From a candidate division Zixibacteria bacterium SM23_81 (GTDB lineage Bacteria; SM23-81), in the NCBI GenBank assembly GCA_001304015.1, contig LJUY01000021.1:1-34432 (forward strand): 34,432 nucleotides of DNA. Reading direction: 5' to 3'. The position numbers and the translations under genes were made by a program. Shown piece after piece: positions 1 to 34,432 of the stretch. The notes beneath the pieces were generated by a model. That model had not been told where the DNA came from, did not search any database, and saw nothing but the letters and a program-made list of their open reading frames with translations. Numbering within the stretch: position 1 is the first letter of the stretch; each line of letters opens with the position of its first letter.

Positions 1-1686
1 GCCATCTACGGACTCGCGGACAACGGCGACACGTACAGCACCGGCATCGGCGTGTACGGCCGCTCCGACAGCGATAATCCCGGCATCGGCGTCTACGGTG
101 AGGTCACAAATACGGGCACGACCTATGGAGTTCGCGGCGTCTCAGCCCACGGCACGGGCGTGCGGGGAGATAACACGGATACGGGAAATCAAGGGTCCCT
201 GGGACGACCGAACGAAGGGGTTTTCGGGTATACCATCCTTCAAGATGGCATGGCGGTTCGTGGACAAGCGTCCTATTCCAGCCTTGGCTACAGCTACGGC
301 GGTTACTTCGAGGCTGCCAGTTCCCTGGGACGAGGGGTTCACGGTGAGGTCAGCGGGCTCTATGGCTATGGAGTGTATGGACGGGCTACGGGCGACTATG
401 GGAGAGGTGTGGTCGGGGAGGCCGATGGCATTCATGGATGGGGCGTCTGGGGAGAGTCTCATGGTGACAGCGGCAGGGCCGTCTTCGGTGAGGCGCACAG
501 TGGGGGCACCGGCGGATATTTCTCCACCAGTGGTAGCACAGCACGGGCCGTGCATGGCGTGGCGGCCAGCTCCGGCACGGGCGGCTATTTCGAGGCCACG
601 GGCCTTACAGGCCGTGGCGTGCATGGTTTCGCCGATGGCGATAACGGACGGGGTGTCATGGGGGAAGCGACCGAGAGGGACGGCATCGGCGTATACGGAA
701 CCGCGGACGGCATCTACGGCATTGGCGTGTACGGCGCAGCCACCGACAACACCGGCTCAGTGCATTACGGAGGGTATTTCACAGCCGATGGGGCCGGGCA
801 TGCGCTATACGCCAAGATCGCAGGCAATAACAGCAGCTCACGGGCGATCTATGCCGAGAATCTCACTACCAGCGAATTAGAGCACTACGCTGGATACTTC
901 CGCGCCACCAGCAATGAGGCTCGGGCGGTCTATGGGCTTGCCGACAGAACGGGGGCTGGATCCGAGACGACGTATGGCGGGTACTTCGAGTCGCGAGCTA
1001 ATTGGGGTGTCGGCGTCTACGGCGGGACCACGAACCCCTACTACGCCGGGGCCGGAGTGCTCGGAGAGGCCTTCGGTGAGGGTAGCGCCGGGATCAAGGG
1101 CGTGAACTCCGGATCAAGTTGGGCTGGGTATTTCGACGGTCCAATTTACTCTAAGGGTTCGGCCGAGGTTTCCGATGATCTCCACGTCGGCGGCGAGCTT
1201 GACGTTGGCGGGATTGTCACCGGGGGCGCCGGCTCGTTCAAGATCGATCATCCGCTGGATCCCAAGAACAAGTATCTTACCCACTCGTTCGTCGAATCAC
1301 CCGACATGATGAACGTTTACAACGGCAATGTGGTCACGGATGCAGGCGGAGAAGCTTGGGTGCAATTACCGGATTGGTTCCAGGCGCTGAACAGAGACTT
1401 TCGCTACCAGCTCACCGTGATCGGCCAGTTCGCCCAGGCCATAGTCGCAGAGAAGATCGAGGGCAATCGATTTCTGATCCGCACCGATAAACCCAACACG
1501 GAGGTCTCCTGGCAGATCACCGGCATTCGCCAGGATCCATACGCCGAAGCGAACCGCATCCAGATCGAGGTGGAAAAGCCAGCGGAAGAGCGCGGCAGCT
1601 ATCTGCATCCCGAGGCATGGGGCCAGCCTGCTGAGTTGCATGTCGATCGCTTCCGGGATGCGCTCAAGGAGGCCCTTGAGAATTAG
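1..1686 (+). CDS. Fibre-like secreted repeat protein, 5' end outside the window
   Basis: The reading frame is open from base 1 (AIYGLADNGD...), so the true start lies upstream; the GTG at 52 is internal. The visible part is built from 12-residue glycine-rich repeats of the form GV(Y/H/W)GxAxGxxGx, roughly bases 330-800, mixed with GGYFxA units. Such repeats suggest a beta-solenoid or trimeric fibre shaft. A short VGGELDVGG linker leads to a C-terminal domain from about base 1230 that starts FKIDHPLDP and contains ESPDMMNVYNGNV and LNRDFRYQLTVIG. The same domain ends the neighbouring protein at 1983-4316, so the two are paralogues at their tips. I know this domain from large exported or tail-fibre-like proteins of many environmental bacteria but know no defined function. 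A signal peptide cannot be seen because the N-terminus is missing; export is inferred from the paralogue. A strong terminator follows 100 bp after the stop. Confidence 0.85.
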   Translation, partial: AIYGLADNGDTYSTGIGVYGRSDSDNPGIGVYGEVTNTGTTYGVRGVSAHGTGVRGDNTDTGNQGSLGRPNEGVFGYTILQDGMAVRGQASYSSLGYSYGGYFEAASSLGRGVHGEVSGLYGYGVYGRATGDYGRGVVGEADGIHGWGVWGESHGDSGRAVFGEAHSGGTGGYFSTSGSTARAVHGVAASSGTGGYFEATGLTGRGVHGFADGDNGRGVMGEATERDGIGVYGTADGIYGIGVYGAATDNTGSVHYGGYFTADGAGHALYAKIAGNNSSSRAIYAENLTTSELEHYAGYFRATSNEARAVYGLADRTGAGSETTYGGYFESRANWGVGVYGGTTNPYYAGAGVLGEAFGEGSAGIKGVNSGSSWAGYFDGPIYSKGSAEVSDDLHVGGELDVGGIVTGGAGSFKIDHPLDPKNKYLTHSFVESPDMMNVYNGNVVTDAGGEAWVQLPDWFQALNRDFRYQLTVIGQFAQAIVAEKIEGNRFLIRTDKPNTEVSWQITGIRQDPYAEANRIQIEVEKPAEERGSYLHPEAWGQPAELHVDRFRDALKEALEN

Positions 1687-1786: not shown

Positions 1787-1813
1787 AGGGGCGGTTCACG
1801 AACCGCCCCTTTT
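1787..1813 (+). terminator. Rho-independent terminator after the first fibre gene
   Basis: A perfect 10-bp stem (AGGGGCGGTT / AACCGCCCCT) with loop CACG is followed by TTT. It lies between the first fibre gene and the promoter of the second, so the two genes are separate transcription units. Confidence 0.85.
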
Positions 1814-1848: not shown

Positions 1849-1877
1849 TTGACAAAAATTGTGATTTATGATAGAAT
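1849..1877 (+). promoter_or_regulatory. Near-consensus sigma-70-type promoter (P1)
   Basis: TTGACA at 1849-1854 and TAGAAT at 1872-1877 are separated by exactly 17 bp. TG lies one base before the -10 (extended -10). Transcription should start near 1884, giving a leader of about 100 nt before the ATG at 1983. The same arrangement, with similar bases just before the -10 (TTTATG), recurs at 5073, 22079 and 26584. Confidence 0.85.
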
Positions 1878-1982: not shown

Positions 1983-4316
1983 ATGAAAGCGATGGCTTTT
2001 ATGGTGATTCTTTCGCTGGTGCTGCTGTCCACAGCGGCGCTGGCCGATGTGCCCGGCCTGATGAATTACCAGGGCACGCTCACCGATGTGGATGGTGTTG
2101 CGCTGGACACCACCGTGTCCATGACCTTTTCCATTTACACCGATTCGACGGGAGGGAGTTCTTTATGGACTGAAACTCAATCGTCTGTTGTGGTGGACCA
2201 TGGTCTGTTTAACGTCCTTTTGGGCCGGGCGAATGCCATTTCGGACGCGGTGTTTAACGGGGCGTCGCGTTGGCTGGGCATTCAGGTAGAGAGCGATCCT
2301 GAGCTGGTGCCCCGGCAGCGGATTGCCAGTGTGGGCTATGCCTTTCGAGCCGCCGAGTCCGATACGGCCGATTACGCGCGGAGCGGTTTAACAGGCAGCG
2401 ATGGAGATTGGACCATTGTGGGCAGTGACATGTACGCAGCCGTTCCCGGCTATGTGGGCATCGGGACGTCCAGCCCAACATACAAGCTTGATGTCCGCGG
2501 TTCGGGTCCAGATGATGGGGTTGTTTTTGGGATCGGAAACTCAGATCTGACTCACCGCCTGATGATCTATGGTGGCCGGCAGAATGATCCTAACCCGTTT
2601 ATCCATTGGAAGGATGGTGACCCGCTGCGGTTCACCACCGATCAGGGTGGCTGGTCTGAGAAGATGCGGATCACCAGCGATGGCAACGTGGGTATCGGGA
2701 CAACCAGTCCCTCCGAGGAGCTTGAAATCTATAAGGACCAGAATGATTGGACTAACCTGATTCTGAACAATCCCAACGCAGGGACAAATGCCGGCAGTGC
2801 TCTTTATTTTTATGAAGGAGGACTTTTGCGCGGCTACCTCTCGGCTCCCGGCTCAGGGAACACTATTGCCGTTTCAGGGCCAGGTAGCCTCCATCTTAGC
2901 GCCTATTATGGTCCGCTTGAGCTTAGTACTGGAGGCGGTAATCCTGTGCGCATTTTACCTTATGGTGGCAATGTGGGTATTGGAACGAGGAATCCTCTTA
3001 AATTGCTGCATTTGTATGGAACAGACAACCCCACGGTGTTGGTCGAGGCTCCGGACATCGCCACGCCAGAGCTCAAATTACAGCGCGGTTCTGAATCCTA
3101 CAGCATGTTTATGGGCTCTGGAAATGATCTGCACTTTTTCAAAGATGGGACCAAGGTCACTTTTACAGATGGTGGCTGGGTTGGCATTGGCACGTCGAGT
3201 CCCAGCAAACACTTGGAGGTACAAGGCATTGGTCCAAGAATTCTGGTGAATGCCACAGCTGGCAACCCCGAATTGAATCTACAGGCTTCAGGTCAAACAA
3301 CATGGGCCATATACCATCATACGGACGTAGGGGATTTGAGATTCTTCCAAGCCGGTGACAAGGTGACCATTCAAAACAGCACCGGCAATATGGGCATCGG
3401 GACGAGCAGCCCAGGTGGCAAACTTCAGGTCGTTGGAGATGGCCTGAAGGCCGGAATCTTTACAACCGATTATGAATCCTACGACTCACGAGCGCTCTAC
3501 GCCGAGTTCACCGCCACTGGCAACTATGACGCGGTTGCCATCGAGGGCGTCTGCACGCCGGCCGATTATTATGGTCTAGGTGGACGATTCGAGGGCGGTT
3601 ATATCGGCGTTCAGGGTGGTGTTTATGCCAGCGGAAGCAACACCTACGAGGGCGTCTATGGTTTCGCCGCCTATGGCACGGGGACGAACATGGGCGTTCA
3701 TGGCAGGGCCGGCGACGGCGAATACAACTACGGGGTCTATGGCTCCTGCGATGGCGGTGGTACCGAAAACTATGCCGGATACTTCAATGGCGATGTTGAG
3801 GTGACCGGCATTCTGACCAAGGGCGGTGGCTCCTTCAAGATCGACCATCCTCTGGACCCAGAAAACAAGTATCTGGTTCACTCCTCCGTGGAATCACCGG
3901 ATATGATGAATGTTTACAACGGCAATGTGATTCTCGATGCCGGCGGAGAAGCGGTGGTAGCACTGCCGGAGTGGTTAGAGACCCTCAATCGCGATTTCCG
4001 CTATCAGCTCACCGCCATCGGTGAGCCCGGGCCGAATCTGCACATCGCCGAGGAGATCGCCGGCAACAGTTTCCGCATTGCCGGCGGCACCCCGGGCATG
4101 AAGGTCTCCTGGCTGGTGAGTGGCATCCGGCAGGATCCGTTGGCCAATGCTCAGCGCATCCAGGTCGAGGTAGACAAGCACGAAGAAGAGCGAGGCAAGT
4201 ATTTGCACCCGGAGGCGTACGGCCTGAGCAAGGAGCGCGGGCTCCATTATGAACAGCTTCAGAGGGCTCAGCAAAAATCAGCCAGATATGAGCAGCAGAG
4301 GAGGGTTGAGAGATGA
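1983..4316 (+). CDS. Exported modular fibre protein with FKIDHPLDP tip
   Basis: The ATG at 1983 has GGAGG 7 bp upstream; a GTG at 1977 would sit directly on the ribosome site. The 777-aa product starts with a signal peptide (MKAMAFMVILSLVLLSTAALA). An N-terminal domain of about 110 residues follows (GLMNYQGTL, SMTFSIYTDSTGG, PRQRIASVGYAFRA), nearly the same as in the 5208 gene. The middle carries several NVGIGTxSPxxxLxV motifs, as in phage-type tail fibres and S74-containing proteins, then GVYGxA units. The C-terminal domain from about base 3824 (FKIDHPLDP, SPDMMNVYNGNV, LNRDFRYQLTAIG) matches the end of the first gene. A charged Q/R/E-rich tail closes the protein. No peptidase S74 domain or outer-membrane anchor is visible. 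It overlaps the companion gene by 4 bp (ATGA), so the pair is probably translationally coupled. A surface or extracellular adhesive fibre is an inference. Confidence 0.9.
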   Translation: MKAMAFMVILSLVLLSTAALADVPGLMNYQGTLTDVDGVALDTTVSMTFSIYTDSTGGSSLWTETQSSVVVDHGLFNVLLGRANAISDAVFNGASRWLGIQVESDPELVPRQRIASVGYAFRAAESDTADYARSGLTGSDGDWTIVGSDMYAAVPGYVGIGTSSPTYKLDVRGSGPDDGVVFGIGNSDLTHRLMIYGGRQNDPNPFIHWKDGDPLRFTTDQGGWSEKMRITSDGNVGIGTTSPSEELEIYKDQNDWTNLILNNPNAGTNAGSALYFYEGGLLRGYLSAPGSGNTIAVSGPGSLHLSAYYGPLELSTGGGNPVRILPYGGNVGIGTRNPLKLLHLYGTDNPTVLVEAPDIATPELKLQRGSESYSMFMGSGNDLHFFKDGTKVTFTDGGWVGIGTSSPSKHLEVQGIGPRILVNATAGNPELNLQASGQTTWAIYHHTDVGDLRFFQAGDKVTIQNSTGNMGIGTSSPGGKLQVVGDGLKAGIFTTDYESYDSRALYAEFTATGNYDAVAIEGVCTPADYYGLGGRFEGGYIGVQGGVYASGSNTYEGVYGFAAYGTGTNMGVHGRAGDGEYNYGVYGSCDGGGTENYAGYFNGDVEVTGILTKGGGSFKIDHPLDPENKYLVHSSVESPDMMNVYNGNVILDAGGEAVVALPEWLETLNRDFRYQLTAIGEPGPNLHIAEEIAGNSFRIAGGTPGMKVSWLVSGIRQDPLANAQRIQVEVDKHEEERGKYLHPEAYGLSKERGLHYEQLQRAQQKSARYEQQRRVER

Positions 4317-4885
4317 TAGGCGACTATAGGAAACAGAAAGGTTTGTTCTGCTTGATCGTTTTTGCCACGGTAGGTCTTTTTTCCCTTGTCCTGGCCGCTG
4401 GGGCCGCCGCCGATGCCCAGCTGGCCACCTCAGTCATAGGCTCAGCCGGTGGCCAGGCTAGCTCCACTAACTTCGTGGTGAAGTCCACCCTGGGCCAGTC
4501 CACGCCTATTGGAGCATCTGCCAGCACGAACTTTGAGGTGGGTGCCGGATTCTGGTACCAGGACCCCGTGGCTCCATCGACTATCGGCGATTTGACGGCC
4601 AATCTGTCCGAGAGTGACATTCTGCTGGAGTGGTCTCACGCCAGGGACAACGTGGCCATTGACCATTATGTGATCTATCGGGCCACACAGCCCTATTTTG
4701 AGGCCGCCGGCGGTGATTCCATAGGCGGAACCAAGGGCACCACCTATCTTGATCTGAGTGCTGCCGGGAGCACTTTGACGAACTATTTCTACGTGGTCAG
4801 GGCGGCGGATCCCAGCCGCAATTTGGCCGAGGATTCTAACCAGGTGGGCGAGTTCGATAGGGGGACAATGGGAGGGCCCAAATAG
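4313..4885 (+). CDS. Small secreted companion protein with fn3-like C-terminal domain
   Basis: The start overlaps the stop of the upstream fibre gene (ATGA at 4313-4316). The 190-aa product has a basic start and a hydrophobic segment (LFCLIVFATVGLFSLVLAAGA), a signal peptide or membrane anchor. Residues of about 35-80 form the pattern GGQASSTNFVVKSTLGQS...STNFEVGAGFWYQ, common in secreted proteins of FCB-type bacteria. Residues of about 85-185 look like a fibronectin type III domain (DILLEWS, YVIYR, NYFYVVRA) ending in VGEF. The same fn3 subtype ends the minus-strand protein at 32831-34432, also at VGEF. A decayed copy follows the next fibre gene at 7561-7692. The function is unknown; constant pairing with a fibre suggests a partner or accessory role, which is inference. 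Confidence 0.8.
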   Translation: MIGDYRKQKGLFCLIVFATVGLFSLVLAAGAAADAQLATSVIGSAGGQASSTNFVVKSTLGQSTPIGASASTNFEVGAGFWYQDPVAPSTIGDLTANLSESDILLEWSHARDNVAIDHYVIYRATQPYFEAAGGDSIGGTKGTTYLDLSAAGSTLTNYFYVVRAADPSRNLAEDSNQVGEFDRGTMGGPK

Positions 4886-4904
4886 TCGGGTTGAGAGGTT
4901 GTAG

Positions 4905-4930
4905 GGGCGCGACATGTCGCGCCCTTTTTT
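4905..4930 (+). terminator. Palindromic terminator 1 (GGGCGCGACA arm)
   Basis: A perfect 20-nt palindrome (arms GGGCGCGACA / TGTCGCGCCC) is followed by six T. It is preceded by GTAGG and resembles the GTAGGGGC... palindromic dispersed repeats I know from many environmental genomes. It ends the fibre/companion operon. Confidence 0.8.
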
Positions 4931-4959
4931 ATGTAAGGAAAGGTTTTAAAAGATTCGTA

Positions 4960-4988
4960 GGGGCACAGCATGCTGTGCCCCCTTTTTT
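4960..4988 (+). terminator. Palindromic terminator 2 (GGGGCACAGC arm)
   Basis: A perfect 22-nt palindrome (arm GGGGCACAGCA and its complement) is followed by C and six T, 30 bp after the first. Both start with GTAGGGGC, so the two are variants of one repeat family. A third variant is at 7738-7757. Confidence 0.8.
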
Positions 4989-5052
4989 ATCCGAGGAAAA
5001 ATTGTCACAGACCTAAAGACGGGATTTCCTTCCCCATATGACTTCAGTAGTT

Positions 5053-5072
5053 GCGAAAACCTCAATTTTCGC
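5053..5072 (+). promoter_or_regulatory. Inverted repeat abutting the -35 of the next promoter
   Basis: GCGAAAA and TTTTCGC form perfect 7-bp arms around a 6-bp spacer (CCTCAA). The repeat ends on the base before the TTGACA at 5073. Its position suits an operator or an activator site, but the A/T-rich half could also simply act as an UP element. No similar repeat abuts the other three promoters of this type. Confidence 0.4.
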
Positions 5073-5101
5073 TTGACAGAATCGGGGATTCATGGTAGAA
5101 T
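5073..5101 (+). promoter_or_regulatory. Near-consensus promoter (P2) for the YadA-head-like fibre gene
   Basis: TTGACA at 5073-5078, 17 bp, TAGAAT at 5096-5101, with TG one base before the -10. The predicted leader is about 100 nt to the ATG at 5208. It belongs to the same set as the promoters at 1849, 22079 and 26584. Confidence 0.85.
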
Positions 5102-5207
5102 GAAATGAAGGCAAAAAAAACAGTTTTTATCCAAAGAGCGGCATATGGCTTCTCTATTTCAATTCCGTGTTTTTTCTAAAACCCTCACTTTCACAGGAGG
5201 TACAGCC

Positions 5208-7517
5208 ATGAGAGTGGCCGCTATTGTGAGCTTGCTGTCGCTGGTCCTGCTTTCAACAGCAGCACTGGCCGATGTGTCCGGTTTGATGAACTACCAGGGC
5301 ACCCTCACCTATGGGGACGGAGTTGCGCTGGATACCACCATCTCCATGACCTTTTCTATCTACACCGATTCAACAGGAGGAACTCAAGTATGGACGGAGA
5401 CGCAGGCGGCAGTGGTAGTGAGCAATGGCCTCTTCAATGTGCTTTTGGGCAGTGTCAACGCGATTTCTGATACTGTGTTCAGCGATCCTGTCCGCTGGTT
5501 GGGGGTACAGGTTGGTGGCGATCCGGAGCTGACGCCCAGACAACGTATTGCTGTTGTGGGGTATGCCTTTCAGGCAGCCGAGGCCGATACGGCCGATTAT
5601 GCCCGCAATGGTGGTGGAGGTGACGACGGGGACTGGACGATTTCGGGCAACGACATATATTCTGCCCTTCCCGGGAATGTCGGCATTGGGACGGCAACCC
5701 CCTCGACAAAGCTGGATGTTCGGGGGACCTTGAATGTAGGTGTTAACGGCGCTGGTTATGATGTCAACTTTTATGGCTTGTTCAGCGGTAGCCGGCTCTT
5801 ATGGGACCAGTCGAAGATGGCGCTCAGGGCAGGCCAGGATTCCGATGGGACCCATTGGCATCCCGATAGCATAGGCTACCATTCCTTTGCCACGGGCTAC
5901 AATACAAAAGCCAGTACGGATTGGACGACTGCAATGGGGGTATCTACCACAGCGAATGCATTTGCCGCAGCCGCGATGGGCGGATATAGCACTGCCAGCG
6001 GATTGTACTCAACCGCACTGGGCCGGAGCACCACTGCGAGTGGTAACTACTCCACTGCCATGGGATATAACACCGCAGCCAACGGGCTGTATTCAACTGC
6101 TATGGGGCGCGAGAGCATCGCCGGCGGATATGCCTCAACCGCTATAGGACAGACTACAGACGCCAGTGGAGGGTACTCAACCGCCATGGGATATCACACC
6201 ACCTCTAGCGGGGACTACTCCATCGCCATGGGGAGATTTGCAACGGTGGATGCGGATAATGCCATCGTGCTGGGGAAGGGAATATCGAGTATCAGCCGCC
6301 TGATGAACAGCGTTGATAATTCCCTTGTGGTTGGATTCGACGACACGACGGCAACGCTATTTGTCGGTGGGCTTAATCATTGGGTGGGCATCGGCACCAA
6401 GGCTCCTGCGGCAAAGCTGGACGTTCAGGGCACCTTGAACGTCGGTATAGACAACACCGGTTACGATGTGAACTTCTATGGGGCAAATAGCGGGGGCAGG
6501 TTCCTTTGGGATGAGGATAAAATGGCTCTCAGAGCGGGTCGGGACAGCGATGGGACTCATTGGGCTTCTGATAGCACAGGGTCATACTCCCTGGCAACGG
6601 GATACAACACCAAGGCCAGCGGACCCTATTCGACCGCAATGGGAATCAATACAGCCGCCAGCGGGGACTTCTCAACGGCAATGGGGGTAGGGACAACCGC
6701 CAGTGGGAATCGGTCAACGGCCATGGGGGATGGCACCATCGCCAGCGCGGCTTACTCAACGGCAATGGGCGATGAAACAGAGGCCAGCGCGGACCGGGCA
6801 ACGGCGATGGGTTATCAAACCATCGCCAGCGGGATAGTCTCCATCGCGATGGGAGAGGGCACCACCGCCAGTGGGGAACGCTCCATCGCCATGGGAGGTT
6901 ACACAGAGGCAAGCGGGGATTTTTCAACGGCGATGGGATTGTACACGACCTCAAGCGGTGATTACTCGGTCGCTGCAGGCAGGTATGTCACGGCCCAGGC
7001 AGCTGACGCCATCGTTCTTGGCCACGGATTGACCAGCGCCAGCCGTCTGGTCAACAACACCTCAAATTCTCTTATGGTCGGCTTCAACGACACGACGGCG
7101 ACCTTGTTTGTCGGTGGTGCCAGTCACCGTGTGGGCATTGGGACGACGAGTCCTGCATATAAGCTGGAAGTTGAAGGCGATGTACACGTCACCCAAGATA
7201 TCAGCAAAGCATTCACTACTGGAACGAGCAATTTAGCCACGCCCATCGCCTACGCCTTTATCAACTCTGGGGGAGCTGTTGTCAACGGCACGCCGAACGT
7301 GAGCTCCAGCTGGAATGGGGCTAGCAGCCGTTATGAAATCACCATCAGCGGAGAAACTTATATATATTCGAGTTATGTCACCCAAGTGACAGTTTCCAGT
7401 GGAAGTCGATATACTGCCACAACCAATAGTGTCAGTGGCAACTTGTTGGTTTATATTTACGATACCACTGGTACTAAGACACAACAGGCTTTTCAGTTTG
7501 TGACTTACAAACCGTGA
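5208..7517 (+). CDS. Exported fibre protein with YadA-head-type repeats
   Basis: The ATG at 5208 has AGGAGG with 7-bp spacing and opens a signal peptide (MRVAAIVSLLSLVLLSTAALA); an in-frame ATG at 5145 would add 21 residues before it and is unlikely. The 769-aa product shares its N-terminal domain (GLMNYQGTL, PRQRIAVVGYAFQA) with the 1983 gene. The shaft has 14-residue repeats of the form YSTAMGxxTTASGx, the hallmark of YadA/Hep_Hag head domains of trimeric adhesins. The shaft module of about 235 residues is present twice in tandem. The C-terminal tip from about base 7190 (ATPIAYAFINSGG, YEITISGE) differs from the FKIDHPLDP tip of its neighbours. No YadA membrane anchor is present, so it is not a classical autotransporter. 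A trimeric extracellular fibre is inferred. It is followed by a companion-gene remnant and a palindrome. Confidence 0.9.
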   Translation: MRVAAIVSLLSLVLLSTAALADVSGLMNYQGTLTYGDGVALDTTISMTFSIYTDSTGGTQVWTETQAAVVVSNGLFNVLLGSVNAISDTVFSDPVRWLGVQVGGDPELTPRQRIAVVGYAFQAAEADTADYARNGGGGDDGDWTISGNDIYSALPGNVGIGTATPSTKLDVRGTLNVGVNGAGYDVNFYGLFSGSRLLWDQSKMALRAGQDSDGTHWHPDSIGYHSFATGYNTKASTDWTTAMGVSTTANAFAAAAMGGYSTASGLYSTALGRSTTASGNYSTAMGYNTAANGLYSTAMGRESIAGGYASTAIGQTTDASGGYSTAMGYHTTSSGDYSIAMGRFATVDADNAIVLGKGISSISRLMNSVDNSLVVGFDDTTATLFVGGLNHWVGIGTKAPAAKLDVQGTLNVGIDNTGYDVNFYGANSGGRFLWDEDKMALRAGRDSDGTHWASDSTGSYSLATGYNTKASGPYSTAMGINTAASGDFSTAMGVGTTASGNRSTAMGDGTIASAAYSTAMGDETEASADRATAMGYQTIASGIVSIAMGEGTTASGERSIAMGGYTEASGDFSTAMGLYTTSSGDYSVAAGRYVTAQAADAIVLGHGLTSASRLVNNTSNSLMVGFNDTTATLFVGGASHRVGIGTTSPAYKLEVEGDVHVTQDISKAFTTGTSNLATPIAYAFINSGGAVVNGTPNVSSSWNGASSRYEITISGETYIYSSYVTQVTVSSGSRYTATTNSVSGNLLVYIYDTTGTKTQQAFQFVTYKP
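5709..7164 (+). repeat. Tandem internal duplication of a fibre-shaft module
   Basis: Two consecutive modules, about 5709-6414 and 6415-7164, each run from KLDV(R/Q)GTLNVG through GYDVNFYG, LW(D)xxKMALRAG, DSDGTHW, a block of 14-residue STAMG repeats, and AIVLG to DDTTATLFVGG or NDTTATLFVGG and VGIGT. The STAMG blocks differ in repeat number, as expected from slippage or unequal exchange of the 42-bp unit. Confidence 0.85.
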
Positions 7518-7560
7518 TACAAAGGGGAAATCCACGTCAAGCGGTGTGGTCACATTAAGT

Positions 7561-7692
7561 TAGGCGAGTATCAGTTTCGGGGTGATTAGAGACTTCTGGT
7601 ATCAGAAACCGGCGGTTCCATCGAACATCGGTGATCTGACGGCTGATCTGCCGTTGATGAAAATCGCTCGAGAGATCAATATCGGTCTGTAG
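7561..7692 (+). pseudogene. Decayed remnant of the small companion gene
   Basis: The frame from 7564 reads ASISFGVIRDFWYQ, then KPAVPSNIGDLTADLP, and stops at 7690. This matches ASASTNFEVGAGFWYQ, then DPVAPSTIGDLTANLS in the 4313 gene. Over the 57 bases from TTCTGGTA to the last shared CTG I count 12 differences. The bases just before (TAGGCGAGTATCAG) resemble the start of the intact gene (ATAGGCGACTATAGG), so most of the first half seems deleted, and the fn3 half after about 7650 is lost. It has the same position relative to its fibre gene as the intact copy. Confidence 0.75.
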
Positions 7693-7737
7693 GCGACACA
7701 AGATAGTCATTATAACCGAGGAAGATTGTTGATGAAG

Positions 7738-7761
7738 GGGCGCAGCATGCTGTGCCCTTTT
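7738..7761 (+). terminator. Palindromic terminator 3 (GGGCGCAGCA arm)
   Basis: The stem GGGCGCAGCA / TGCTGTGCCC has one G-T pair and is followed by TTTT. It is a third member of the palindrome family seen at 4905 and 4960 and closes the degraded copy of the cassette. Confidence 0.7.
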
Positions 7762-22062: not shown

Positions 22063-22107
22063 TTTTTTAAAAAAGTTCTTGACAAAAATCTTGGTTTATG
22101 GTAAAAT
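22063..22107 (+). promoter_or_regulatory. Near-consensus promoter with T6A6 upstream block (P3)
   Basis: TTTTTTAAAAAA at 22063-22074, then 4 bp, TTGACA at 22079-22084, 17 bp, TAAAAT at 22102-22107, with TG one base before the -10. Upstream block, spacing and spacer bases (TTTATGG) match the promoter at 26584 almost exactly. The A/T block can act as an UP element. The leader to the ATG at 22261 is about 148 nt and contains a second strong ribosome-site-like sequence, AAAGGAGGTG, at 22166-22175, far from any long reading frame. Confidence 0.85.
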
Positions 22108-26565: not shown

Positions 26566-26612
26566 TTTTTTTAAAAAAAGGGCTTGACAAAAAATGGCGT
26601 TTATGGTAGAAT
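26566..26612 (+). promoter_or_regulatory. Near-consensus promoter with T7A7 upstream block (P4)
   Basis: T7A7 at 26566-26579, 4 bp, TTGACA at 26584-26589, 17 bp, TAGAAT at 26607-26612, with TG one base before the -10 and TTTATGG in the spacer. It is nearly a copy of the promoter at 22063-22107. Transcription should start near 26619. Confidence 0.85.
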
Positions 26613-26618
26613 GGTTAC

Positions 26619-26843
26619 AAAGAGATGTATGCAGCCAAGCACTAGTTTTGAGGCTATTCTTAAGGTTTTTTAACCTGCTAGCCTAGTAAAGGGGGTGGTG
26701 TACTTCATCTTTTAACCAGTTTCTGTTCCTTATTTCGTGGACCATATCGTTCCATGAGGAGGTGATGGTATTCGATCTGGTGGATTCCGGGCTCCAGGGA
26801 GCCTGGGAAGGGTTGAGGTTTTCATCATCACATGGGAGGAAAG
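26619..26843 (+). other. Long 5' leader of the 1817-aa cargo gene
   Basis: About 225 nt lie between the predicted start of transcription and the ATG at 26844. Two ribosome-site-like sequences occur well before the gene: AAAGGGGGTGG near 26690 and GAGGAGGTGATGG near 26757. The latter contains a 4-codon ATGAGGAGGTGA. A small hairpin, GGCTCC/GGAGCC, lies near 26790. A regulatory leader is possible but not shown. Confidence 0.4.
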
Positions 26844-29800
26844 ATGAGCAAGAAGTTTACGATTGTTCTGTTAGTGGCTGTCGCTCTCATCGCCTCTGCC
26901 TCAGTTTTCGCTGACCAAGCGGTCGAGCGGAGTGACTCGCCTCTGGTGATACCGGAGACGGATGAGATTGAGAAGATTCCAACGGCACCTGGGAACCCTC
27001 TTCTTGGTCCCCCCAGTCAGTTGAAGGGTCCCTTGAGCGAGGGTTTTGAGGGCGGTGCCATACCGGCCAATTGGACGGTGTACAACGAGGATGGCGACAG
27101 CTACCAGTGGGAAGCCTATAAAACCACCAGCGCGCATAGCGACAGCTTTGTGGCCCGGGTGCATTATAATTATTACGGCTGCGATGACTGGCTGATCACT
27201 CCTAGGTTGACGGTGGCTGCGGGCGATAGCATCATCTTCTGGGCTAAATCGTACAGTTCTTCTTACCTGGAGGACTTTGAGGTGTTGCTGTCCACCACCG
27301 GCAATGCGGTCGGCGATTTCACCACTCAGCTGGACGCAGTCACCGACACGCCGTATGATCCCTGGACAAAGTATGGGTATGACCTGTCAGCCTATGATGG
27401 CCAGAATATCTACGTGGCCGTGCGGTGCGTCTCGGTGAACGAGTTCTATCTCTATGTGGACGACTTCAGCGGCCCGGAGCTGTGGGTGCCTGCTGGTCCG
27501 GCCATCGCCTTCAGCACCACCGATTTGGACTTCGGCACAGTGGGCATCGGAGGTTCCCAGGATCTGCCGCTGGTCATCTACAGCGTGGGCGCCTCCGACC
27601 TGACGGTATCTGCCGTCAGCTCCGACAACGCGCACTTCACGCATGATTTTCCCGGCGTGACGGTGATCTCTCCTGGTGACTCTCTCGTAGTGACGGTCAC
27701 CTTCACGCCCACCGTCGAGCCCCAGGAGACGGGCACATTGACCATCACCCACGACGGTACCAAGGCCGAGAGCTATATCGCTATGTCCGGCAGGGGATTT
27801 GCCGGTCTGTTCTTTGAGGATTTCGAGACCACCGTTCCGCCTGCCGGCTGGACCGATTACCACTTGGGTGATGCTGGCTCTCAGGGATGGTACCAGAGCA
27901 ATGTCAACCACGATTCCTGGTATGCTCGCCACACCTACGAAAGTGCCTATAATTGTGACGACTGGCTGGTGACTCCAGCCGTCACCATTCCCGCGGGCAA
28001 GTATCACGCCGCGCTCGAGTTCATCATGTACGAATACCTGCCCGACGATTATATGTATCATGGTGTGTGGGTATCCACGGGCAGCGGCGATCCCAGCGGC
28101 GGCGGTGGTCCCAGCGGATATGGTGATTTCATCGAGCTGCAGCAGATCCCGGTCACTCCTGAATTCGATTGGACGCCCGCCATCCTAGATCTGGGTACCT
28201 ACGCCGGTGAGACCATCTATCTGGCCTTCGTCTATCAGGATTCCAACACCTATTCCGATGCCTGGGGTATCGACTCGGTGAAGGTGGTCGAATACATCAA
28301 CCAGCCTCCGGAGATCGCCCACGATCCCAAGGGCGACACCGACGACACCACCCCGATCATCACGGCTATCATCACAGACGTCGAGGCAGTAACCGCCACC
28401 GCTTACTACGAGACGGCTCCCAAGGCCTTCACCCCGGTAGCCATGTCACTCACTGGCGTCCTGCCCAACGAGTACTCCTGTGATCTTCCCGTGGGAGCTT
28501 ACGGCACCGTCAATTACTATATCGAAGCCGAGGACGCCTCCAAAGGCCTGGTGACCACCACGGCTACATACTCCTTTGATATCTGTCCGCCCACGGGCAT
28601 AGAGCTCATTTACGACGACGGCACCGTGGAGAACGCCACCTGCTGGAACCCCGGCTATGAGGATAACAGGTTCGCCGTTGGCTTCACCCCACCCGCGTAT
28701 CCCTGCACCCTGAACGCTGTGAAGCTAGGCATCGCCGGCGATTGGCCCGACGCGGTTCACCAACAATTTGCCGTGGAGGTCTACAACGATTCAGCTGGCC
28801 TTCCCTTCCAATTGATCTACGGTCCCGACACCACCAACTCCATCGGCAACATCGTGGGCGGCGTGCCACCGTATCCCGATCTAGTTTGGGCCTACGTGTG
28901 CATCGATCCGCCGGTGGTGATCACCTTCGGCGATTTCTACGTGGCCAAAGCTCAGGTCACCACCCATCCGGAGTGCGAGGGCTTGGACATCGACGATGAC
29001 GGCACCCAGTTCAGCCGCAGTTATTGGGACACAACTGGCGGCACCGGCGCTTGGTCTCAGTACTATCCCGGCGAACGCAACCTGATGATCCGGGCTTATA
29101 CCAGCCAGGTGCTCACCGTAGGTGACCTTCAGGGTACGGTGACCGAGGCCACCAAGGGTCCCATCCAGGACGCCATCGTCACATCTGTAGGTGCTTTGGT
29201 CACCAAGTCCGATACCACCGATGCCAGCGGTAACTATTTCATCGGAGGTCTTCCCGAAGGTGACTATGACGTCACCGCCGAGGCTGCGGGATATCATTCT
29301 CAGACGGTCGAGGACGTGGCCATTACGGCCGGTGACACCACAGTCCAGGACTTCGCTCTTCAGGTGGATACAGCCCTGCTGCGGGAGAGCTTCTGCGGAA
29401 CCTTCCCACCTGCTGGCTGGACCAGCTACCAACTGGGCGATCCAGCGGGCTGGCAGCAGACCACCATTGGACACGACGACGCTTGCGCAGCGTTTCACAA
29501 TGACGACAACGTCACCACTTTGTGCGACGACTGGCTGGTGACCCCGGCCCTGAGCATCCCCGCTGGCAAGGCGGAATACGCGTTGACCTTCTGGGAGTAC
29601 TGGTATTACGTCAGCTACTACTACTATCACGGCGTCATGGTCTCCACTGGTAGCGGCAACCCCAATGACGGCCAATTCGTCGAGCTGCAGGAGATCAACA
29701 CAGGTGCCGGATACGCTTGGGAGCAGATGGGTCCCATCAGCCTGGCGGCTTACGCTGGCCAGACCATCTACCTGGCCTTCCGGTATCAGGGCGACTACGC

Positions 29801-32297
29801 CGACGAGTGGACGGTGGATGACGTGCTGGTTGACATGGTACTGACCGGCAACATTGGCGGAACGGTAGCCGAAGCCAAGGGTCCCATCCAGGACGCCATC
29901 GTTACCGCTGGAGGCATCTCCGACACCACCGATGCCAGCGGAGGCTATCTCATCGAGGGCCTGACCGTGGGTGATTATGACGTTACTGCCACCGCCGCAG
30001 GCTACTTCACCAAAAAAGAAACTGGAGTGTCCGTTGCGGCGGACGATACCACCATGGTGGACTTCGCCCTGACGGCGTATGGCACCGGCGAGGTTCTGCT
30101 GGTGGATGCCGATGGAAGCCCCGCCTATTACCCCGACAGCGTTTTCACCGATGTGCAGTCCTACTTCACCGACGCCCTGGACGCCTGTGGCTATACTTAT
30201 GACATCTGGGAGAAGATGAGCTGGCCTGAAGACGGTCCCGACGCGACGGTGATGGGCTACTACGACGCGGTAATTTTCTTCACCGGCGAGGCCTGGACTG
30301 GCAGTCAAACCCTGACGGACAACGACGAAACGGAGCTGGCCCTCTATCTGGACGGAGGCGGCAAGCTGTTCCTGTCGGCTCAGGATTACTTCTACGATCG
30401 CTATCCCTCTGCTGGCAGCTTTTCCCCTGGTGAGTTCCCCTACGACTATCTGGGCGTCACCTCTACGACTCAGGACGTCGTCTGGATGACCTATCCTGCT
30501 GTGGGGACTTCCGATGGTTATGCCGGCTCGGTGGCCGATGGCCTGTTCTACGATCTCTTCGATCCCTATACGCCGCCCGCAAAAGTCGATGATCCAAAGG
30601 CGCCCAGCAGGCGTCCCGACGGTCTGCCCATCGACGAGCTGGTTATCGCAGGTGACGCCGTGCTCGATGCTATCAGTGGCGCCGACACCGTGGACATCGG
30701 AGCCTGCCAGTATGAGGGCACCAAGGGCTTTAAGACCGTCTTCACCACGGTGGACTTCGCAGGCTTGGTCGACGGAACCCACACCAGGGCAGAGCTGATG
30801 TGCTCCATCATGGATTGGCTCCTGGCTCCGCCAGCGCAAATGTGGCTGTCCAATGGTGGCGTGAATCCCATCATCGGCAATCTGAGCACCACCTTCACAT
30901 ACTCGGTGACCTACACCCAGCTCAGTGAGCTGGCGCCGACGCTGAAGAAGGTGTACATCGACGGTGTTCCTTACGACATGGTCGATCCCACTGGCGGTGC
31001 CGGGCCGTATTCGGGAGGCGTGGTGTTCACCTATCAGCACCAATTCACCCTGGGTGGCAATCACGACTTCTACTTCGACTTCTCCGATGGCACCATATCT
31101 GACCGGCTGCCCTCTAGTGGGACTTTCTGGGGACCCATGAACGGCTTCTACTACTGGCACTTCGAAGATGCCGCTCACTTCAACACCACCGGCAGCCCGA
31201 CGGAAGACTGGGAGTGGGGTACTCCCACGGATCCCAATGGTCCGACCTCGGCTCATTCCGGTGAGAAGTGCTGGGGTACGGTGTTGGACACCAATTACAG
31301 TGTCAACTCCACCAGTCGTTTGGAGACGCCTCCGCTGGACTTCAGCAGCGCCATCGGCACACTGGAGTTGAAGTTCTGGCACTGGTACGATACCGAGGGC
31401 TATTTTGACGGCGGCAATGTCAAGCTGATCCTGCCCGACACGACTATCCTTCTGTTCCCCGACACTACCCAAGCTGGCATCGACGAGTATCCAGAAGATG
31501 CTCATTCTACTGGCAATGCTTGGATCCCTGGTGAGCCGGGTTACTCTGGCCATGTGCAAGGGTTCTGGGAGGAGGCTATTTTTGACCTCACCCCATGGGC
31601 CAACCAGAGCAACGTGGTCATTGCCTGGGATTTCGGCAGCGATGGCTCGGTGACCTATCCCGGTTGGTTCATCGACGACGTGGTCATCTGGGGTGAGCCG
31701 CCTCTGCCCGTGGAGCTGGCTAGTTTTGCGGCTACCGCCGGCGATAGGGTGGTGACGCTGGCCTGGGAGACGCGCAGCGAGCTGAACAACCTTGGCTTCC
31801 AGGTCTACCGTAGGGTAGAGGATGGAGAGTTCGCGCGCATCGACACCGAGATGATTCCGGGAGCCGGCAGCTCTGAGGACGCTCATTCTTACACTTACGT
31901 GGACAGGGGGCTGACCAACGGCGTGACCTATTACTACCAGATCGCGGCCGTTGATTTTGCTGGCAACGTCCGGATTCACGACATGGTTGTGTCGGCCACA
32001 CCAGTGTCTGTGTTGCCAACGGTCTTTGCGTTGTCGCAGAACTATCCCAACCCGTTTAATCCCAACACCGAGATTAAGTATCAACTTCCTAGAGACAGCC
32101 GAGTGGTCCTGAGGATTTACAATGTGATGGGCCAGGAGGTTGCTACTTTGGTCGATGCTGATTTGAAGGCCGGTTACTATACGGCGACGTGGAATGCTCG
32201 TGATGCTCGAGGTTCAGAGGTATCGGCGGGCATTTACTTCTGTCGCTTGCAGGCTGGAGAGTTCAGCCAGACCAGGAAGATGGTGCTAATCAAGTAG
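26844..32297 (+). CDS. Giant multidomain T9SS-secreted protein
   Basis: The ATG at 26844 has GGGAGG just upstream and starts a signal peptide (MSKKFTIVLLVAVALIASASVFA); an ATG at 26832 would put extra residues before it. The 1817 aa comprise, at approximate residues: cleaved-adhesin/choice-of-anchor J 66-212; a choice-of-anchor D or ASPM-type Ig domain 219-316; a second adhesin domain 322-484; an unassigned beta region 487-758; a carboxypeptidase-regulatory-like domain 760-843; a third adhesin domain 845-1003; a second regulatory-like domain to 1078; a GATase-like alpha/beta domain (VLLVDADGSPAYYPDSVF, YDAVIFFTGE) 1083-1326; the FTYQ domain 1331-1428; a jelly-roll-like domain (WEWGTP, FWHWYD, GGNVKL) 1436-1618; an fn3-like linker; and a sorting domain with QNYPNPFN at 1732, ending RKMVLIK. 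No protease motif such as HExxH is seen. It is a single-gene unit; surface adhesion or substrate binding is inferred. Codon use avoids TTA, CTA and TCA over long stretches. Confidence 0.9.
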   Translation: MSKKFTIVLLVAVALIASASVFADQAVERSDSPLVIPETDEIEKIPTAPGNPLLGPPSQLKGPLSEGFEGGAIPANWTVYNEDGDSYQWEAYKTTSAHSDSFVARVHYNYYGCDDWLITPRLTVAAGDSIIFWAKSYSSSYLEDFEVLLSTTGNAVGDFTTQLDAVTDTPYDPWTKYGYDLSAYDGQNIYVAVRCVSVNEFYLYVDDFSGPELWVPAGPAIAFSTTDLDFGTVGIGGSQDLPLVIYSVGASDLTVSAVSSDNAHFTHDFPGVTVISPGDSLVVTVTFTPTVEPQETGTLTITHDGTKAESYIAMSGRGFAGLFFEDFETTVPPAGWTDYHLGDAGSQGWYQSNVNHDSWYARHTYESAYNCDDWLVTPAVTIPAGKYHAALEFIMYEYLPDDYMYHGVWVSTGSGDPSGGGGPSGYGDFIELQQIPVTPEFDWTPAILDLGTYAGETIYLAFVYQDSNTYSDAWGIDSVKVVEYINQPPEIAHDPKGDTDDTTPIITAIITDVEAVTATAYYETAPKAFTPVAMSLTGVLPNEYSCDLPVGAYGTVNYYIEAEDASKGLVTTTATYSFDICPPTGIELIYDDGTVENATCWNPGYEDNRFAVGFTPPAYPCTLNAVKLGIAGDWPDAVHQQFAVEVYNDSAGLPFQLIYGPDTTNSIGNIVGGVPPYPDLVWAYVCIDPPVVITFGDFYVAKAQVTTHPECEGLDIDDDGTQFSRSYWDTTGGTGAWSQYYPGERNLMIRAYTSQVLTVGDLQGTVTEATKGPIQDAIVTSVGALVTKSDTTDASGNYFIGGLPEGDYDVTAEAAGYHSQTVEDVAITAGDTTVQDFALQVDTALLRESFCGTFPPAGWTSYQLGDPAGWQQTTIGHDDACAAFHNDDNVTTLCDDWLVTPALSIPAGKAEYALTFWEYWYYVSYYYYHGVMVSTGSGNPNDGQFVELQEINTGAGYAWEQMGPISLAAYAGQTIYLAFRYQGDYADEWTVDDVLVDMVLTGNIGGTVAEAKGPIQDAIVTAGGISDTTDASGGYLIEGLTVGDYDVTATAAGYFTKKETGVSVAADDTTMVDFALTAYGTGEVLLVDADGSPAYYPDSVFTDVQSYFTDALDACGYTYDIWEKMSWPEDGPDATVMGYYDAVIFFTGEAWTGSQTLTDNDETELALYLDGGGKLFLSAQDYFYDRYPSAGSFSPGEFPYDYLGVTSTTQDVVWMTYPAVGTSDGYAGSVADGLFYDLFDPYTPPAKVDDPKAPSRRPDGLPIDELVIAGDAVLDAISGADTVDIGACQYEGTKGFKTVFTTVDFAGLVDGTHTRAELMCSIMDWLLAPPAQMWLSNGGVNPIIGNLSTTFTYSVTYTQLSELAPTLKKVYIDGVPYDMVDPTGGAGPYSGGVVFTYQHQFTLGGNHDFYFDFSDGTISDRLPSSGTFWGPMNGFYYWHFEDAAHFNTTGSPTEDWEWGTPTDPNGPTSAHSGEKCWGTVLDTNYSVNSTSRLETPPLDFSSAIGTLELKFWHWYDTEGYFDGGNVKLILPDTTILLFPDTTQAGIDEYPEDAHSTGNAWIPGEPGYSGHVQGFWEEAIFDLTPWANQSNVVIAWDFGSDGSVTYPGWFIDDVVIWGEPPLPVELASFAATAGDRVVTLAWETRSELNNLGFQVYRRVEDGEFARIDTEMIPGAGSSEDAHSYTYVDRGLTNGVTYYYQIAAVDFAGNVRIHDMVVSATPVSVLPTVFALSQNYPNPFNPNTEIKYQLPRDSRVVLRIYNVMGQEVATLVDADLKAGYYTATWNARDARGSEVSAGIYFCRLQAGEFSQTRKMVLIK

Positions 32298-32830: not shown

Positions 32831-34432
32831 TTAGGGAGAAGTTGTGATGGTGAACTCCCCCACCTTCTCGGAGGGGGCCGATTTCTCACCGTCGAGGCTC
32901 AGAACCCTGACCACGTAGTAGTAGTTAGTTGGGTCTCCGGCAGCCTCAGCGTCGATGTAGCTTGTATTCGTGATCGTAGCGAGGGACTCTGGCTCTGCGG
33001 AGGGATTCTCGGGCAAGGAGCCCCTGTAGATGATGTATCCCGCAGGGCTTATCTCGCCAGGCCGAGACCAGCTGAGCAGGATGTCATCTCCTGCCAGGCT
33101 CAGGCTAAGACCTGAGACGGCAGGTAGAGAGAGTGAGCTCGGGCGAAGTCCAGTGATGGCCACATCGTCGATGTACCAGCCGGGATAGGTGTGTCTAAAG
33201 TTTGTACCCAGGTGAAAGCGGATAGCGACGCGATGTCCGCTGTAGGGGCTGAGATCGAAGGTCTCCTGATGCCAGTGCTGACCGGCCTGGTACGAGCAGA
33301 ATCCCGGCTCTCCCGGGATGCCGGCGTTGACGCCGTGGATGGTACCCTCATATCCGTTGTCCGGTGTGATGACCTGAAAATCACCTCCGTCCACGGAAAT
33401 CTTGACGTTCCCGCCGTCGTAGTGGGCCTGCCGGTATTCGAAGGAGAACCAATGCCAGAAGGAGAGCTGAGGATAAGTGACTCCAGTTAAGTCGATGGGC
33501 GGCGTTTCCAGCCTGGCGTCGGCGTTGTTGGAATAGTCGCCTTCTAAATTGGTGGCCCAGACCTTCTGGCCGGAGTGTGCCTCTCCCGGACCGCTGGTGG
33601 GATTGCCCCACTCCCAATTGGAGCCGGTGGCGGTCAGGCCCCCGGGCCAATTCTCAAAATCCTGCTGGTATATCGCCTTGGTGACCAAAGGCTCGGCAAG
33701 CTCTCCCAGGCTCGGCCACCTAATCGTTTCCAGGCCGCTGCAGACGAAAAAGTGATGCTGGTGTTCTCCCAGGTCTAAAGGCGTTTGATAGGTGAAAGTT
33801 GCACCTTTGGCAAAATCAGTATCGGCAGTGGTCATGGTGTAGCGTATGCTGTCGATGTAAACGAAGGCGAACTGAGGTGAATAATTGTTATCGCTGATAT
33901 AGGTGGTGCTGAATGTAAAATTCTCCGTCTCGCCCCCCCGTTTAGGAGATACTTGCACTTGATCCAGAACAAATCGACGAGGCTGGCCCACATAAACATC
34001 ATCGATGTACCACCCCTGGCCGCAGTTCTGCTCGTCGCTGGTGAGCCGAAAGCGAATCTGGAGTGCAGATCCGCTGGGATAGGCAGACAGATCGTAGCTC
34101 TCACTGATCCAACCCTGACTGGTCCCGGTGAAGGGCTCGCCCAATGGAATCCACCCGGTACCGGTGTAAATTTCTACGTGTCCAAAATCTCGATCTTCCT
34201 CCAAGTCGTACCAGTGCCAGAAGGTAAGCACAGATCCAGCGACCAGGATAGTCCGGGAGGACATCAAGAAAGCGTCCATCCCGTTTTGATACTCCTGATG
34301 AGCGGACTCTCCGCAATACCAGGAATGTAGGGGTGTGTGGGCTCTGCTCTGGCTGAGATGCCAGAGATCGCCGGTTCCACCGTGAGTCCAGGAGGTCTCT
34401 TGATCCTCCATGTCATCCATCAGGCCTGTGGG
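32831..34432 (-). CDS. Large secreted-type multidomain protein, 5' end outside the window
   Basis: The frame is open to the window edge (PTGL before the Met at 34420), so the start is not visible. In reading order it has a jelly-roll-like domain (WTHGGTGDLWHLS, SWYCGE, FWHWYD, GWYIDDVYVG; down to about 33975). The FTYQ domain follows (FTFSTTYISDN, VYIDSIRYTM, FTYQ; about 33970-33690), then a second jelly-roll-like domain (WEWGNPTSGPGEAHSG, RLETPPIDL, YPGWYIDDVAITG; about 33680-33140). A C-terminal fn3 domain (DDILLSWS, YIIYRG, NYYYVVR) ends in VGEF. FTYQ plus jelly-roll is the same pair as in the convergent 1817-aa protein. The fn3 end matches the small companion at 4313-4885. There is no T9SS sorting domain. 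The visible domains are non-catalytic; the missing N-terminal part may hold an enzyme, as such modules often follow proteases. Confidence 0.85.
   Translation of the reverse strand, partial: PTGLMDDMEDQETSWTHGGTGDLWHLSQSRAHTPLHSWYCGESAHQEYQNGMDAFLMSSRTILVAGSVLTFWHWYDLEEDRDFGHVEIYTGTGWIPLGEPFTGTSQGWISESYDLSAYPSGSALQIRFRLTSDEQNCGQGWYIDDVYVGQPRRFVLDQVQVSPKRGGETENFTFSTTYISDNNYSPQFAFVYIDSIRYTMTTADTDFAKGATFTYQTPLDLGEHQHHFFVCSGLETIRWPSLGELAEPLVTKAIYQQDFENWPGGLTATGSNWEWGNPTSGPGEAHSGQKVWATNLEGDYSNNADARLETPPIDLTGVTYPQLSFWHWFSFEYRQAHYDGGNVKISVDGGDFQVITPDNGYEGTIHGVNAGIPGEPGFCSYQAGQHWHQETFDLSPYSGHRVAIRFHLGTNFRHTYPGWYIDDVAITGLRPSSLSLPAVSGLSLSLAGDDILLSWSRPGEISPAGYIIYRGSLPENPSAEPESLATITNTSYIDAEAAGDPTNYYYVVRVLSLDGEKSAPSEKVGEFTITTSP

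Follow-up and report, generated by a model that had tools for sequence, protein, structure and literature searches.

The question raised by positions 1983-7761 of a contig from the candidate division Zixibacteria bacterium SM23_81 (LJUY01000021.1, 34,432 nucleotides (nt), the whole of which is here called the window) is whether a long exported fibre and the small secreted protein encoded directly behind it work as a pair and, if so, what the small protein does for the fibre. The order of elements in this region is promoter-fibre-companion-terminator, then promoter-fibre-companion remnant-palindrome, with a third fibre gene upstream (1-1686). The first-pass annotation had proposed a two-protein secreted system consisting of the fibre and a 'fn3 companion'. 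We found that genes for such fibres and companions are paired in distantly related bacteria, and that what is conserved is the N-terminal half of the companion. From this we propose that the companion may be a base adaptor that mounts the fibres on the cell surface.

The companion consists of two modules. Its N-terminal domain of ~50 residues, for which we coined the name GFW, follows the pattern STNF..STLGQS..G.S.STNF..GAGFWYQ, and its C-terminal half is a module resembling fibronectin type III (FN3) that ends in VGEF. A GFW profile was built exclusively from sequences found by similarity, never from gene position, and was run over 193 genomes together with a profile of the conserved N-terminal domain of the fibres. 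GFW was detected in 17 genomes and the fibre domain in 33, and all 17 were contained within the 33 (P about 1e-15). Fifteen of the GFW genomes represent lineages outside the window's family, all but one of them also outside its phylum. In these 15 genomes, 26 of the 29 GFW hits were located within 5 kb of a fibre gene, all on the same strand, as compared to 0.66 expected (random-placement P about 5e-43), and the adjacency was found in 14 of the 15. One member of the GFW profile was taken from genome G012; when this hit is left out, the count becomes 25 of 28. Since the random-placement null ignores the clustering of surface genes, two controls were added. FN3-only proteins of the window's own genome were near fibres in 2 of 35 cases (2.7 expected), and T9SS-sorted proteins without GFW in genome G061, that is, proteins sorted by the type IX secretion system (T9SS), in 2 of 38 cases (1.7 expected). 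These counts show that fibre and GFW genes are paired, with a strict adjacency in some 15 bacterial families. Adjacency in other genomes had been set beforehand as the test of the two-protein proposal, and its conservation supports the view that fibre and companion form a secreted system. The FN3 half, on the other hand, was rejected as the conserved link, since it is not enriched near fibres.

The fibre gene preceded the GFW gene in 18 of the 29 pairs examined and followed it in 11, and the gap was at most 300 nt in 24. The 4-nt ATGA overlap seen in the window recurs in distant genomes (L120, L136). The window's own genome (3.07 Mb in 99 contigs) encodes five full companions, all of them in fibre loci: directly behind the fibre in the window, C29 and C23, after a fibre and one protease in C72, and after a fibre and three proteases in C85. 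The same fibre-companion order, with one companion, is present in a genome of a sister genus (DAOVRJ01, labelled Candidatus Zixiibacteriota). No description of the fibre/partner pair was found in the literature. The earlier statement that no function had been described thus holds for the pair, but the fibre does have a studied relative in the mosaic adhesive trimer (MAT) family of Bdellovibrio. Two observations on gene order may be added. Predicted secreted proteases (trypsin-like, clostripain-like and C10-like, as judged by eye) lie between fibre and companion at L065:6173-10766 and L070:14376-7373. Furthermore, a mini companion consisting of GFW and a T9SS sorting domain immediately precedes a diverged, second type of fibre at L070:6393-6950, L106:6705-7484 and L110:464-1042.

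The GFW domain was covered by no Pfam or NCBIfam model in our scans and is, as judged from these searches, a domain new to both databases. What it is joined to varies. Among 30 GFW proteins, 17 carry a T9SS type A sorting domain (TIGR04183) and 6 a dockerin, while the VGEF FN3 module is found on GFW proteins of the window's family and of G151, which lies outside the window's phylum. Because GFW joins T9SS sorting domains, dockerins or VGEF FN3 modules, it is the constant part of these proteins, the other part often being a surface-holding module. Some GFW proteins are large and multidomain, reaching 1467 residues. The T9SS translocon SprA is encoded in the window's own genome (799 bits, with its neighbours in the frame) and had a match in 15 of the 17 GFW genomes, 12 of them over the cut-off. 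With respect to the FN3 half, the Pfam fn3 match is weak and stays under the cut-off (E-value 0.048; 14.3 bits versus a gathering threshold of 25). A profile of the FN3-module family finds the chitinase A1 chain 1k85 (E-value 0.0018). The companion has 41 matches in its own genome, mostly to the VGEF FN3 module alone. In 29 of the 30 proteins that were checked, this module forms the very end of the chain on the C-terminal side, and it is also present in the window at 32831-34420 (- strand) and at ~35 further places in the genome. It may represent an unrecognised C-terminal sorting or anchoring domain that exists alongside the T9SS one.

The conserved N-terminal domain of the first of the two complete window fibres (fibre 1) has 26 matches in its own genome, which encodes ~24 fibres. 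In full-length fibres the signal peptide is followed by a domain of ~115 residues and then by a shaft, which is either rich in VGIGT or of the YadA-head type, and the C-terminus is formed by a tip. Clustering of the tips from 23 fibres (21 of the window's genome and 2 of the sister genome) gave 12 clusters without detectable mutual similarity. The N-terminal domains of all 22 scanned fibres of the window's genome match the NCBIfam model NF053851 (Bdello_MAT_N; best E-value 5.6e-10), as do 14 diverse fibre N-domains, most of them from other genomes; this is the only model that both sets matched consistently. As the match falls under the curated cut-off and covers only about the first half of the model, we use the term MAT-like for the fibres, without assigning them to the family. 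An AlphaFold 2 model of the N-domain based on four sequences had a mean confidence score (pLDDT) of 71 and predicted an all-beta sandwich. A fold search with this base domain gave no PDB match at an E-value below 0.001, the best VIA-align Z score of 7.5 falling in the range of common arrangements, and two weak matches to unnamed viral proteins (E-value below 0.001). A sequence search of solved structures identified no relative of the base domain.

Pfam scanning of the 22 fibres detected YadA-head repeats in 5 and S74 chaperone tips in 2, both of them indirect signs of a trimer; the fibres are probably trimeric. They begin with signal peptides and are predicted to be exported and located at the surface. 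None of the 22 fibres matched a YadA-type C-terminal membrane anchor, the only Pfam families reported being YadA_head, S74, Phage_T4_gp36 and ORF20A, and no recognised outer-membrane translocation domain was matched in Pfam and NCBIfam scans.

Which part of the fibre the companion is likely to work with can be approached by comparing five linked fibre/companion pairs from the two sister genomes. Identity is 75-86% between mature companions and 65-74% between base domains, as against 13-41% between tips, which for most is near chance. Since companions and bases are conserved and tips are not, the companion's counterpart must be the conserved base or the cell, and not the tip.

Altogether, we read the region as a surface-fibre locus. 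Every unit codes for an exported fibre, in which a conserved base domain at the N-terminus is followed by a shaft of repeats and by a C-terminal tip that can be exchanged; where the unit is intact, a small exported partner is encoded as well. In the mechanism that we propose, fibre and partner would both cross the inner membrane by means of their signal peptides, the GFW domain of the partner would bind the base domain of the fibre, and the C-terminal module of the partner (the VGEF FN3 module in the window, and in relatives a dockerin or T9SS sorting domain) would keep the complex at the surface of the cell; one and the same base could then carry any tip. We assign this base-adaptor reading a probability of roughly 0.55. 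It starts from what the sequences themselves contain, namely the fibre family, the diversity of its tips, the GFW domain with its fibre adjacency and its C-terminal modules, and the T9SS machinery of the genome. Direct binding of GFW to the base domain, trimerisation, surface location, use as an adhesin and the anchoring role of the companion are what we infer from these elements.

Several points weigh against this reading. The interaction and the location that it assumes are predictions from sequence. The NF053851 match reaches ~36 bits against a curated cut-off of 60 and extends over about the first half of the model. The window companion itself matched none of the T9SS sorting-domain models TIGR04183, PF18962 and PF13585, and anchoring by its FN3 module is a guess from the C-terminal position of this module. 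The AlphaFold 2 model of the companion, made from a single sequence, had a pLDDT of 36 and is unusable for the GFW fold. Lastly, a detected GFW gene lies within 5 kb of only 8 of the 24 fibres in the window's genome, and of 40 of 134 across all genomes counted. That about one third of the fibres have a GFW gene nearby therefore implies sharing in trans, the existence of GFW-independent fibres, or copies missed in the search, it being noted that GFW detection depends on a short profile.

The chief rival to the base adaptor is an export or assembly chaperone that keeps the fibre unfolded or aids its trimerisation or outer-membrane crossing, possibly using its sorting domain to take the fibre through the T9SS, without becoming a permanent part of the fibre. 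It holds this position because a signal peptide is present in the fibres but no domain for outer-membrane translocation was recognised in them, so that a helper would be expected. The presence of T9SS-type sorting domains on the partner rather than on the fibre, and the overlap or tight spacing of the two genes, would fit such a helper too. Yet the dockerin and FN3 ends point to lasting attachment rather than transient help, and multidomain GFW proteins of the size mentioned above would be odd chaperones. We regard this explanation as unlikely, though it deserves to be taken seriously. Less probable still is that the companion acts independently, as a small surface protein with its own ligand or a matrix role, which shares operons with fibres through a common regulon and makes no direct contact with them. 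Indeed, the promoter type is common to many secreted-protein genes (54 sites genome-wide) and proteases also occur in some fibre operons. Such co-regulation does not account well for the fact that FN3-only and other T9SS-sorted proteins are not enriched beside fibres, or for the recurrence of the adjacency in nearly all GFW genomes outside the window's family.

The base/tip comparison also bears on the idea of a companion that belongs to the fibre as a minor component, capping the tip or adjusting its specificity. It is exported and encoded beside the fibre, as such a component would be, but much the same companion goes with unrelated tips, and we consider this role very improbable. We give the least credence to the view that the fibres are left over from phages or tail-like particles, with the companion as a gene that strayed in beside them. 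PHROG tail-fibre and YadA-type matches to the shafts and the two S74 tips could be read in this way. However, full-length fibres begin with a signal peptide, ~24 copies are dispersed over the genome, and the neighbouring genes look like housekeeping genes (enolase and glycyl-tRNA synthetase, as judged by eye from their translations). Companion relatives were searched for in viral contigs and none were found. No virion structural genes were recognised among the translated open reading frames of the window, in which no systematic search for them was made.

The base-adaptor reading gains its interest from the MAT fibres of Bdellovibrio bacteriovorus, a predator that grips its prey with them. They comprise 21 members, which have in common a beta-rich domain that follows the signal peptide (Caulton et al. 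2024, PMC10769870). According to the same authors, the surface element bound by this domain is unidentified, and the domain has no convincing PDB relative (PMC10769870), as is the case for the base domain studied here. The main text of that paper, as far as adjacency and operons are concerned, mentions no partner gene (PMC10769870). In both systems the signal peptide precedes a conserved N-domain that is rich in beta structure (as predicted, for the fibres here), a fibrous shaft comes next, and the tips at the C-terminus are diversified and include some S74 tips; both have about 20 copies per genome (21 in Bdellovibrio, ~24 here). They differ in that the N-domain here remains under the curated cut-off of the family, that the bacterium which encodes the fibres is uncultured and possesses a T9SS, and that a GFW gene is conserved as partner of the fibres. 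YadA-type trimeric autotransporter adhesins share with the second complete window fibre (fibre 2) the YadA-head repeats (PF05658), but have a membrane anchor of a type that was not matched in the scanned fibres, and a reversed base/tip arrangement. Small T9SS-sorted surface proteins resemble the GFW proteins in the type A sorting domain at the end of 17 of 30 and in the presence of SprA in the genome; they differ from the window companion, which has an FN3-like module in that place, and GFW belongs to no matched Pfam or NCBIfam model. MAT-like fibres thus appear to extend well beyond Bdellovibrio, and where MAT fibres have been described in one predator with the attachment point left open, GFW is a concrete candidate for it. 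Whether GFW is a general receptor for MAT-type base domains, in a modular two-part fibre system of many lineages with exchangeable tips and surface anchors, is a wider proposal to which we give about even odds.

The individual elements of the locus, all on the + strand, are as follows (window coordinates).

1..1686 (+): third fibre gene, C-terminal part, clipped at the window edge; its tip is 60% identical to that of fibre 1 (164 residues) and belongs to the same tip cluster
1787..1810 (+): intrinsic-terminator-like hairpin behind the third fibre (sequence scan; fold -20.3 kcal/mol including flanks)
1849..1877 (+): promoter-like TTGACA-17-TAGAAT of the fibre 1 unit; same spacing and place ahead of most fibres in the genome
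1983..4316 (+): fibre 1, 777 residues; signal peptide, MAT-like N-domain, VGIGT-type shaft, 'FKIDHPLDP' tip class
2046..2393 (+): conserved N-terminal domain of fibre 1; NF053851 Bdello_MAT_N E-value 5e-9 (under curated cut-off), predicted all-beta sandwich
4299..4304 (+): companion ribosome-binding site AGGAGG (from the sequence)
4313..4885 (+): companion, 190 residues; signal peptide, GFW domain, FN3-like C-terminal module; ATGA overlap with fibre 1
4412..4564 (+): GFW domain of the companion, ~50 residues; kept beside fibres across bacteria
4565..4882 (+): VGEF-type FN3-like C-terminal module of the companion; Pfam fn3 E-value 0.048, under cut-off
about 4901..4926 (+): GTAGGGGC palindrome 1, terminator-like; strong hairpin followed by a T-run
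about 4957..4981 (+): GTAGGGGC palindrome 2, terminator-like; strong hairpin followed by a T-run
5073..5101 (+): promoter-like TTGACA-17-TAGAAT of the fibre 2 unit
5208..7517 (+): fibre 2, 769 residues; signal peptide, MAT-like N-domain, YadA-head repeats (PF05658 E-value 9e-47), its own tip class
5271..5609 (+): conserved N-terminal domain of fibre 2
7594..7677 (+): companion-gene remnant, GFW/FN3 boundary, with an in-frame TAG
7734..7757 (+): GTAGGGGC-type palindrome 3; folds to a strong hairpin

The order fibre, companion and palindrome, repeated with a decayed companion, is indeed present as first annotated. The remnant is real but short: 86 nt are 73% identical to companion positions 238-323 (E-value 7e-12), and a TAG is in frame. 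The term 'duplicated cassette' overstates the relationship of the two units. Fibres 1 and 2 are not each other's closest relatives: the N-domain of fibre 1 shares 82% identity with an N-domain from contig 17, as against ~75% with that of fibre 2. A recent tandem duplication of the cassette was ruled out, since the copies are no closer to one another than to other family members. In view of the 26 N-domain matches in the genome, the two fibres are, by sequence comparison, tandem members of a dispersed family and not a fresh tandem copy. The ATGA overlap of fibre 1 and companion is also present (1983-4316 versus 4313-4885). Coupled translation, which had been deduced from it, is plausible but not required, because the companion has its own AGGAGG 8 nt before the start.

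The palindromic terminators noted previously were found again, palindromes 1 and 2 as hairpins with T-runs and palindrome 3 behind the remnant. The genome contains ~16 occurrences of the GTAGGGGC type, many of them, though not all, located behind a fibre or companion, and the palindromes matched no Rfam family. Most simply, they would be intrinsic terminators. The idea that they are a dedicated part of the fibre system was rejected, as they are terminator-like hairpins of one sequence type. At C15:516 and C40:25838 of the window's genome (G000), identical palindrome flanks lie behind fibre tips at one contig start and one contig end, and these are likely to be a single assembly repeat.

An almost perfect promoter-like site is located ~105 nt ahead of the start of each of the two complete window fibres. 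Sites of this class scoring at least 11 were found upstream of 61% of 23 fibres, as compared to 0.2% of shuffled upstream regions. Of the 54 exact TTGACA-17-TARAAT sites in the genome, 13 are ahead of fibres (counted by eye), and the window contains four, at 1849-1877, 5073-5101, 22079-22107 and 26584-26612. The recurrence of this promoter suggests a shared regulon of fibre and surface genes. This near-consensus promoter, with an extended -10 element (usually TG before it), is found ahead of fibres and of other surface-protein genes. Elsewhere in the window, a 1067-codon open frame (28881-32084, - strand) runs antisense to a large gene for a T9SS-sorted protein (26832-32297) and is probably a shadow of repetitive coding sequence.

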